Shown here: positions 36,923 through 47,173 of the stretch, piece by piece
Layout of the letters: every line of letters begins with the position of its first letter
Position numbering within the stretch: the stretch's first letter is position 1
Assembly: GCF_001889405.1 (NCBI RefSeq)
Contig: NZ_CP017921.1
Location: 1,440,057-1,504,056, forward strand
Source: Methanohalophilus halophilus
GTDB taxonomy: Archaea > Halobacteriota > Methanosarcinia > Methanosarcinales > Methanosarcinaceae
Direction of reading: 5' to 3'
Length of the DNA: 64,000 nt
The notes under the pieces: generated by a model
The model's input: only the letters and a program-made list of their open reading frames with translations
Databases searched by the model: none
What the model was told of the DNA's origin: nothing
Made by a program: the position numbers and the translations under genes

Positions 36923-37429
36923 TCAGATGTATTCATTCTGGATTTGTATAATATCTTCACTATTGTTTGCTTTACTATAATCTTCCAGAGGTTCTCTGTT
37001 AAGTTCCAGAAAAGTATGTCCCCATCGGAATTTTGACAGAATATTTTCCGCTTGATCTTTGTTTCCCAGAATATACAAAGCCGCTGCAAAAGCTTCGACC
37101 GAATTTAATTTAAAGGGTTTGCCAAAATTCACCGGATTTGAAGCTAGTAGATAGGGCAACGCACGATGCTGTAACTTGCGACGCAACAGTTTAGGAAAAA
37201 TTTCTTCCACAGTATTCCATGAACAGTCAAGGACAATAATGTCTGAAATCTCACAGTCTGCAGGTGAAAGAGCTTTTTCTGCCATTGGGTCAAGTAAGAT
37301 GGATCCCTTTGGGAGTGAATGTATTTTTTCATGCAGTCGGACCAGATCAAATTTTTTGAGTCTTTTACCTGTGCATTTTTTAGGATCACATTGACGGGCG
37401 TGATAAATATGGAGTCTGAATTCTTTCAT
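36923..37429 (-). CDS. tsr3: rRNA aminocarboxypropyltransferase Tsr3
   Basis: 168 residues. [58 protein letters not shown], and the [34 protein letters not shown] core are the DUF367/Tsr3 pattern. In yeast Tsr3 moves the aminocarboxypropyl group of SAM onto a hypermodified pseudouridine of 18S rRNA; archaea make the matching 16S mark. No strong Shine-Dalgarno is evident. The gene is followed by the LOG protein. Confidence 0.94.
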
Positions 37430-37464: not shown

Positions 37465-37605
37465 TGTTCAAAAAAGCTTGTGATCCGGCCGGTTTCCTGC
37501 CGGCCAGAATCAACAAAGGTGGTTGTATGATATTTGCTCCCGCAGTTTACGGGGCCGGGCAGACTTGCTAATCTGTCCCTCTATAAAATGAGGGTTGTTC
37601 TATTA
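37465..37605. ncRNA. Candidate structured RNA between tsr3 and a phosphatase gene
   Basis: A locally GC-rich stretch in an AT-rich gap holds four hairpins. I: TTG+TGAT+GGCCGG (37478-37492) with CCGGCC+ATCA+CAA (37500-37516). II: CCCG (37539-37542) with CGGG (37550-37553). III: GGGCAGA (37557-37563) with TCTGTCC (37572-37578). IV: CCCTC (37577-37581) with GAGGG (37590-37594); III and IV compete for two bases. Stems II and III gain G-U pairs only if the plus strand is transcribed, and a T-rich run follows IV. On the minus strand a TATA-like run precedes it and a T6 follows hairpin I, so strand is open. No open reading frame fills it. Confidence 0.45.
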
Positions 37606-37713
37606 TTTAAATGTTAACGGCGAATACTTTGTATAATTCCATTTCTCTTTTTGCATATTTGGGATGTCTGTTTAGTATAATTAGGCTTTTTCGGAAGCCG
37701 GAGTATTTTACAA

Positions 37714-38532
37714 TCAAAGATAATACCTGGTTTTGTCAATAATCCTTGTACCATCTTCCGTTTTTCCATATGTGTATATTTCAAGTTGATCCGTTTTGAT
37801 AAGGCATACAGCACCCTTTGCAGGAGTGCCATGGTTATTCAGCGTTGAATGTATTGAAAGTAATCTATTCCCAAACCACCATTTATATCCTGTATCCAGT
37901 GAACTATGGGCACGAATAATCATTTGCAGGTCATTAAGGTGGAGGAATCCTTCCACAATATCGGGGCCAAAGGTCCGTATGTCTCTTCCTCTTATGGAGA
38001 AGTTCAGGCCAGGTATCTCAGACGGGTCATTCCAGAGATAATTAAATGAATTTTGTTTTGTGATAGCTGTTGTTTTCCTTATATCTTCGATACCGCCGTG
38101 GACACAGAATATTTTTTTGTTTATTAAAGCTGCCACAGGCATTTCTTCAAACACGATATTAGCAAAATTGAACAGGTCACTATCTTCCAGCTCATCAAAG
38201 AATTCCCTTTTCTCGTTCATCTGCTTTGTTTCATGATTCCCTCTCAGGAGGAAGACATTTTTCGGTGAGGCAATCTTTAATTCCAATAATCTTGAAAGGA
38301 CTTCTGCAGAATTTCTTCCACGATCCACATAATCTCCCAGGAATATTATATTTGCAGGTTCTAGCTCTTCTTTGAGTGAAATAATCGTGTTCAGGGCCTC
38401 AAGGTCTCCATGCAAATCTCCGATTATCATTGTGGGAAGTTCTTTTATTCTTATTACTGCATTTTCTTCCCTGAACAAGTTTCTCGCATGTGTTAGGTTG
38501 GCCTGAAATTGTTTGTTCTGGTTCATATCCAT
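37714..38532 (-). CDS. PPP-family serine/threonine phosphatase
   Basis: 272 residues. Metal ligand motifs are complete: GDLHG (38-42), GDYVDRG (66-72), GNHE (98-101), FCVHGGI, and a late RAHSSLDTGYKWWF. It resembles the PP1/PP2A group more than the bacterial PrpA type. It should remove phosphate from Ser/Thr proteins in the cytoplasm. The candidate structured RNA lies just downstream. No ribosome binding site stands out. Confidence 0.92.
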   Translation of the reverse strand: MDMNQNKQFQANLTHARNLFREENAVIRIKELPTMIIGDLHGDLEALNTIISLKEELEPANIIFLGDYVDRGRNSAEVLSRLLELKIASPKNVFLLRGNHETKQMNEKREFFDELEDSDLFNFANIVFEEMPVAALINKKIFCVHGGIEDIRKTTAITKQNSFNYLWNDPSEIPGLNFSIRGRDIRTFGPDIVEGFLHLNDLQMIIRAHSSLDTGYKWWFGNRLLSIHSTLNNHGTPAKGAVCLIKTDQLEIYTYGKTEDGTRIIDKTRYYL

Positions 38533-46190: not shown

Positions 46191-46495
46191 TTGATGTTGT
46201 GTTGTATATTAGTCTTTTGGATATATTGTTGAGATTTCTGTTTCAATATAACCTTCGATCATCCTATTTTTATATTAATTGCTTTAAGGATAGTCTCTTT
46301 TTCTTATAAAGGACAATCTATGTTACCCATGTGGATTACATATGTTATCCTAAAACTTTTTTTTATATACTATGAATATACTCGAGATAACAAGTGTATT
46401 TGATTTGTCAACGGGTAAAGTGAATTAATTATTGGCTATATAAGCCCTAAAAACTTGAACAAATTTCACTGCCCGATAATGGTGGTTGTATATCA
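46191..46495. promoter_or_regulatory. Control region upstream of the DUF2162-ExbB-CobN cluster
   Basis: 305 bases between divergent genes. ATGTTACCC (46320-46328) and its near-inverse GGATTACAT (46333-46341) form an imperfect 22-bp dyad, and a third copy, ATGTTATCC, follows at 46342-46350. Two TATA-like boxes lie downstream: TTTTATATAC around 46361-46370 and CTATATAA at 46435-46442. GGTGG near 46481-46485 is the ribosome binding site of the first gene. The repeated ATGTNAYCC half-site looks like an operator. Confidence 0.5.
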
Positions 46496-47173
46496 ATGAG
46501 TGCAGTATATTTAACAGTCATAGGAATTCTGCTGGCAATAGCTATATTTGCAGTTAAGGCCGGAGTGGGATGTGGATGTTCGACTATCAATCGCAGGCAG
46601 TTATTTGCCATTGCAGGGATGTATTTTGTATTGTCCGTAATCATAGGCTTGATTCTTAATTACATCGACATATCCTATCTGCTGAATGCTTCCCAGGTTG
46701 GAATGGGAATGCATGTGTTAATGGCTCTCTTGCTTCTGGGTGTAGGTATCTATACTTCCAAAAAATGGAATTGTGGGGTGGATGTATCCCATAAGACTTT
46801 CCTTGTGATCTCCCTGCCCTGCCCCGTATGCCTTGCAGCTCTTTTCATGTCAATCATGCTGCTTTCCAATACCGTTGAGATCAGCAGTGCACTTCTGGGA
46901 CTTGGGGTTGGTGTCACCTTTTTCTTTTCCATCATTTCCTCTTCCCTGATTGTCAGGAGGCTTAAAAAGGATCCAACAACCCTGGGCAATGCCATGACGT
47001 TTTTGGGCCTGTTCTACTTGATGGGTGCAGTAATCGCCCCTGCCTACATGCACGCAAAACAAATGGGTCTTCCGACTTTCAGCGGACCCGAATTTGATAT
47101 AATACCCTTCATCGGCTTTGCAATTCTCATAACGGCTGGCTTTGCACTTAATCGTATCAAAACCCAGTATTAA
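46496..47173 (+). CDS. DUF2162 predicted membrane transporter
   Basis: 225 residues with six membrane segments (about 4-24, 35-55, 70-90, 100-122, 130-150 and 160-225 with two). Cysteines in VGCGCSTI and LPCPVCLAALF lie at helix edges and could bind a metal. The family is known only from genomes, mostly methanogens, and is usually called a predicted transporter. It opens the cluster that continues with ExbB/TolQ, DUF2149 and two CobN proteins; the gap to the next gene is 21 bases. Confidence 0.85.
   Translation: MSAVYLTVIGILLAIAIFAVKAGVGCGCSTINRRQLFAIAGMYFVLSVIIGLILNYIDISYLLNASQVGMGMHVLMALLLLGVGIYTSKKWNCGVDVSHKTFLVISLPCPVCLAALFMSIMLLSNTVEISSALLGLGVGVTFFFSIISSSLIVRRLKKDPTTLGNAMTFLGLFYLMGAVIAPAYMHAKQMGLPTFSGPEFDIIPFIGFAILITAGFALNRIKTQY

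Follow-up and report, generated by a model that had tools for sequence, protein, structure and literature searches.

Targets are known for few archaeal intergenic sRNAs, and in the methanogen family considered here the characterized ones that we found all come from Methanosarcina. In M. mazei, a single-stranded linker of the 191-nt sRNA162 masks a ribosome-binding site by base pairing, and this sRNA has been reported from M. mazei, M. acetivorans, and M. barkeri alone (PMC3510493). Two other sRNAs of M. mazei are sRNA154, which is expressed under nitrogen starvation and was described as conserved in Methanosarcina, and sRNA41, which acts on mRNAs of the acetyl-CoA decarbonylase/synthase (PMC5867862).

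Here we describe a locus of Methanohalophilus halophilus, located in an analyzed stretch of 64,000 nt (the window), where a sequence-only reading had noticed a GC-rich island with four hairpins between tsr3 and a phosphatase gene. Judged from this sequence and those of its relatives, the hairpins belong to a genuine small RNA gene of salt-loving, methane-producing archaea that had not been catalogued before and that lies here on the minus strand. We propose, with a probability of about 0.58, that it is a free-standing sRNA gene with its own TATA promoter, and that the linker of its RNA would pair with ribosome-binding sites of the GGUGG type.

The island lies in the 284-nt gap between two genes that are both on the minus strand, and its GC content (48% at 37465-37605) indeed exceeds that of the flanks (39% and 31%). 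On the minus strand the island folded with -44.4 kcal/mol (z -3.95), and none of 200 shuffled sequences was as stable. The hairpins described before, including the GGCCGG/CCGGCC stem, were found and go beyond chance on this strand. Hairpin III (37557-37579) and hairpin IV (37577-37594) share the bases 37577-37579, as the overlap claimed for them requires. Hairpin IV, however, overlaps DNA close to the promoter, most of it lies before the predicted transcription start, and its pairing was not conserved in diverged relatives. The fold of the plus strand had a z of only -1.26, with 24 of 200 shuffled sequences as stable. G-U pairs in stems II and III had been taken to favor the plus strand, but these positions are U-G pairs on the minus strand and C-A mismatches on the plus strand; the argument therefore favors the minus strand. 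The sense strand also had the more extreme z in all 18 homologues, although in the four most diverged species of the sister genus neither strand was strongly non-random in the fold test. An RNA from the plus strand was rejected, since its z was weaker than that of the minus strand in every comparison.

The gap was 91-94% identical in five other Methanohalophilus genomes. Beyond these, there were a few short matching pieces, which in several genomes lay just upstream of tsr3. Because a plain MAFFT alignment across Methanohalophilus and its sister genus, which may be Methanococcoides, misaligned the 3' hairpin, the covariance model R1 was seeded with six sister-genus sequences only. R1 recovered all eight Methanohalophilus loci, with E values of 1e-4 to 0.06, and also four diverged loci of the sister genus outside its seed, with E values of 1e-6 to 1e-9, and every one of these loci was intergenic and upstream of tsr3. 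The refined model R2, trained on 17 of the 18 genomes that it matched (G005, with E 1.3e-8, was outside the training), gave E <= 1.3e-8 in 18 of 186 searched genomes of the order, and the remaining 168 had no hit at E <= 0.01. The RNA was present upstream of tsr3 in 8/8 Methanohalophilus species and 10/11 species of the sister genus. Weak model matches in G030, G010, and G096 were promoter-like or due to chance and were discarded.

In the 17-sequence alignment A5, which was fitted to the structure of the model and is biased towards it, though individual folds show the hairpins as well, 94.6% of pair cells were standard. Two-sided changes occurred in 16 of the 25 pairs of A5, a number that none of 500 shuffles reached (mean 9.9), and when the partner was slid by one to three columns, pairing dropped to 34-46%. 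Five of the seven pairs of stem-loop 1 (helix 2 of A5) had such changes. Covariation in A5 thus points to the conserved secondary structure expected of a trans-acting intergenic archaeal sRNA, and the pairing looked for among relatives near tsr3 was present in the 17 aligned homologues.

Table 1. Coordinates of the predicted RNA gene, its neighbors, the candidate target site, and a second RNA of the sister genus. Positions are those of the window unless a locus is named.
Feature	Sequence	Position	Strand	Remark
tsr3		36923-37429	minus	Pfam Ribo_biogen_C and Fer4_RLI
U6 run		37470-37475	minus	presumed terminator after the 3' stem-loop, from sequence
Predicted small RNA, ~111 nt		37470-37580	minus	predicted start ~37580, end at the U6 run
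3' stem-loop		37477-37517	minus	terminator-like; two-sided changes in 10/16 pairs, 17 genomes
Linker	AAAUAUCAUACAACCACC	37518-37535	minus	predicted unpaired by folds
Linker core	AUACAACCACC	37528-37518	minus	in the open linker
Stem-loop 2	GGCCCCGUAAACUGCGGGAGC	37536-37556	minus	Methanohalophilus type only
Stem-loop 1	GGGACAGAUUAGCAAGUCUGCCC	37557-37579	minus	two-sided change with pairing retained in diverged G006/G002
Promoter block	TTCGCCGTTAACATTTAAATAATAG	37600-37624	minus	hardly varies in 8 Methanohalophilus and 6 sister-genus genomes
TATA box	TTTAAATA	37611-37604	minus	archaeal TATA consensus
PPP-type phosphatase gene		37714-38532	minus	upstream of the RNA gene
Candidate target site	GGTGGTTGTAT	46481-46491	plus	ribosome-binding site of DUF2162 gene, start codon 46496
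Second RNA	14-bp stem GAGUUCUUUAAGAA/UUCUUAAAGAGCUC	L290:1439-1524 (G009:C1)		also L293-L296, L303

When the regions upstream of tsr3 were placed side by side, a near-invariant promoter block, a variable stem-loop region, a near-invariant motif, and a variable 3' hairpin followed one another. The distance from the start of the block (TTTACGCCGTTAACATTTAAATA) to the ACCACC motif was 90-99 nt in the compared genomes. From its agreement with the archaeal TATA consensus, the block probably functions as a promoter. The 5' end of the RNA would then be at the foot of stem-loop 1, as predicted from the TATA-to-start spacing in the two groups compared by hand. Transcription from this promoter would yield an RNA with two 5' stem-loops, an open AUAC(A/U)ACCACC linker, and a terminator-like 3' stem-loop followed by a U run; the fold of 37469-37580 had -42.7 kcal/mol. 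In G067, a transposase-like reading frame was directly upstream of the RNA gene (L190:820-1506), and the promoter block was degraded while the RNA was retained. Matches to the promoter pattern in Methanosarcina were dismissed, as the ones inspected resembled coding or unrelated sequence, with no ACCACC motif downstream.

The C-rich linker was the most constant part of the RNA. Its core ACNACCACC was almost invariant, and every column of the linker block was invariant among six close genomes. The motif read AUAC(A/U)ACCACC in 14 genomes; the other four, which are the most diverged, had GUAC(U/C)ACCACC. A point against our proposal is that an alternative fold in Methanohalophilus can place CCACCU in a hairpin loop.

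We suggest that the linker would pair with GGUGG-type ribosome-binding sites of mRNAs encoded in trans, and that translation would be blocked where the site is paired. By likeness to the linker of M. mazei sRNA162, masking of ribosome-binding sites is most likely the mode of action, and the effect on the target would be repression rather than activation. In Methanohalophilus, one target may be the mRNA of a DUF2162 transporter encoded 9 kb away, whose ribosome-binding site is covered by an exact 11-nt complement of the linker core. Besides the RNA itself, its own genome contains three exact complements GGTGGTTGTAT, one of which is this site. The predicted duplex (-22.4 kcal/mol) was the best among the 63 ORFs of the window, while 3 of 60 shuffled linkers did equally well. 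The block TGGTGGTTGTATATCAATG of the leader before the DUF2162 gene (46460-46520) was kept in four Methanohalophilus genomes and nearly kept in a fifth, and the leader around it diverges in those genomes. The target site was absent in G002, G006, and the sister genus. Because of this absence and the 3/60 shuffles that match, we treat the DUF2162 gene as a hypothetical target. Sites of GGTGGTTGTAATCGATG near the DUF2162 gene of the sister genus were rejected, since they are antisense within a neighboring gene and are not ribosome-binding sites.

The DUF2162 gene is the first of a DUF2162 / MotA-ExbB / DUF2149 / CobN-like cluster, which resembles a metal or tetrapyrrole uptake system. In the literature searched, no paper dealt with DUF2162, and the one that named Methanohalophilus together with sRNA concerned RNA half-lives in Methanosarcina. 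In Methanohalophilus, the GGTGGTTGT site in front of a gene that resembles cysS (cysteinyl-tRNA synthetase) was retained as a weaker second candidate target. At G000:C1:1583539 (L246:1040), AGGTGGTTGT spans the ribosome-binding site of this gene and is complementary to 10 nt of the RNA linker, and four other Methanohalophilus genomes also have GGTGGTTGTTTGAATG.

A second intergenic RNA, conserved and structured, was observed in six genomes of the sister genus, upstream of a superoxide-reductase (desulfoferrodoxin-like) gene, and had no match in Rfam. Its tail GGUGGUAGUAU (AGUGGUAGUAU in one genome) is complementary to the sister-genus linker AUACUACCACC. Since this RNA was found by searching for complements of the linker, the coincidence is weaker than it looks. 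A diverged form of its promoter and stem was found beside phage-terminase-like genes at G072:C5:95410 (L305:1501-1612), without the GGUGGUAGUAU tail. It is quite doubtful that the two RNAs form a circuit, in which the second RNA would titrate the linker motif of the tsr3-linked RNA or be titrated by it; if so, they would be an archaeal RNA-sponge pair.

In the main rival explanation, the tsr3 mRNA would carry the RNA as a structured 5' leader or attenuator that controls the Tsr3 rRNA-modification enzyme in cis. The RNA is on the strand of tsr3 and directly upstream of it in 18/18 genomes, a constant neighborhood that suits a cis role, and in Methanohalophilus the U run is followed by the tsr3 start codon after only 40 nt, with no well-placed TATA box seen between them. 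In the sister genus, however, the end of the RNA is a long way upstream of tsr3, the sequence in between is divergent, and a TATA-like element of its own (AAAAGTATAACC) precedes tsr3, similar to that of genera lacking the RNA. Moreover, the most constant part is the exposed motif and not an expression platform beside the tsr3 start, so that we consider a leader rather unlikely. In another alternative, the RNA would act as a sponge, decoy, or scaffold and not on ribosome-binding sites, its ACCACC linker binding a protein or another RNA. In the sister genus the single-stranded stretch is long and conserved (GAGGAAAAACGAAUACUACCACC), which is consistent with this, as is the second RNA, whose tail is exactly complementary to the linker core. 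However, no protein preferring an ACCACC-type motif was found in the searches made, and neither Methanohalophilus nor the diverged sister-genus species yielded a match for the second RNA. Such a role is therefore unlikely.

The adjoining rRNA-modification gene tsr3 and an ACA at the base of the 3' hairpin of the Methanohalophilus RNAs could also fit a guide RNA of the H/ACA or C/D type, a function that the sequence-only reading had offered. This ACA is not conserved in the sister genus, no C/D boxes were recognized, with the C box RUGAUGA in none of the 17 homologues, the hairpin folds contain no pseudouridylation pocket, and no Rfam guide family reached threshold. A modification guide is thus extremely improbable. 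Other known RNAs were likewise not recognized: in Rfam 15 no family reached the gathering score and nothing relevant appeared at loose E-values, and ARAGORN found a single tRNA in the window, at 1260, in agreement with the earlier view that the island is not tRNA, 5S, SRP, or RNase P RNA. An mRNA for a small protein was considered as well, because an ATG frame (MSLRKNEYYH...) crosses the linker in some members of the sister genus. Nearly every difference in this frame there alters an amino acid, with a single silent one observed, whereas the stems co-vary, and Methanohalophilus has no such ATG frame; no coding frame is conserved, as is expected of an archaeal sRNA. An untranslated remnant of the phosphatase gene is contradicted by homologues without a phosphatase upstream. 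These two origins and a chance cluster of hairpins are, taken together, very improbable. The phosphatase gene is not upstream of the RNA in the sister genus, G006, or G002, and no homologue of it was found in G006 or G002; its upstream place in the sister genus is taken by a divergent membrane-protein gene adjoining sfsA.

The free-standing sRNA gene is thus our preferred reading. The suggestion of a new, possibly regulatory small RNA gained good support from the promoter block, the co-varying stems, the exposed motif, the presence in 18 genomes, and the lack of an Rfam match. As far as sequences can tell, it is most likely a new small-RNA family of an already known kind, the trans-acting intergenic archaeal sRNA. 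With its promoter, ACCACC core, and named candidate target, the family is comparatively well defined, and specific tests become possible with one RNA, one 11-nt pairing, and one operon.

Compared with the sRNAs of Methanosarcina, the tsr3-linked RNA differs from all three in its distribution: neither R1 nor R2 (cut-off E <= 0.01) found a homologue in Methanosarcina genomes, which places it outside the sRNA162 family and sets it apart from sRNA154 and sRNA41. As in sRNA41, for which masking of ribosome-binding sites on polycistronic mRNAs has been proposed (PMC5867862), the gene is intergenic. The intergenic sRNA154 also exposes a sequence complementary to ribosome-binding sites (PMC5867862), but in a loop, whereas the motif of the tsr3-linked RNA is in the linker. 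The closest resemblance in layout is with sRNA162. Its linker is its most variable part, while the linker core is the most constant part of the tsr3-linked RNA, but both are intergenic RNAs of the same methanogen family, composed of stem-loops with a single-stranded linker before the last one.
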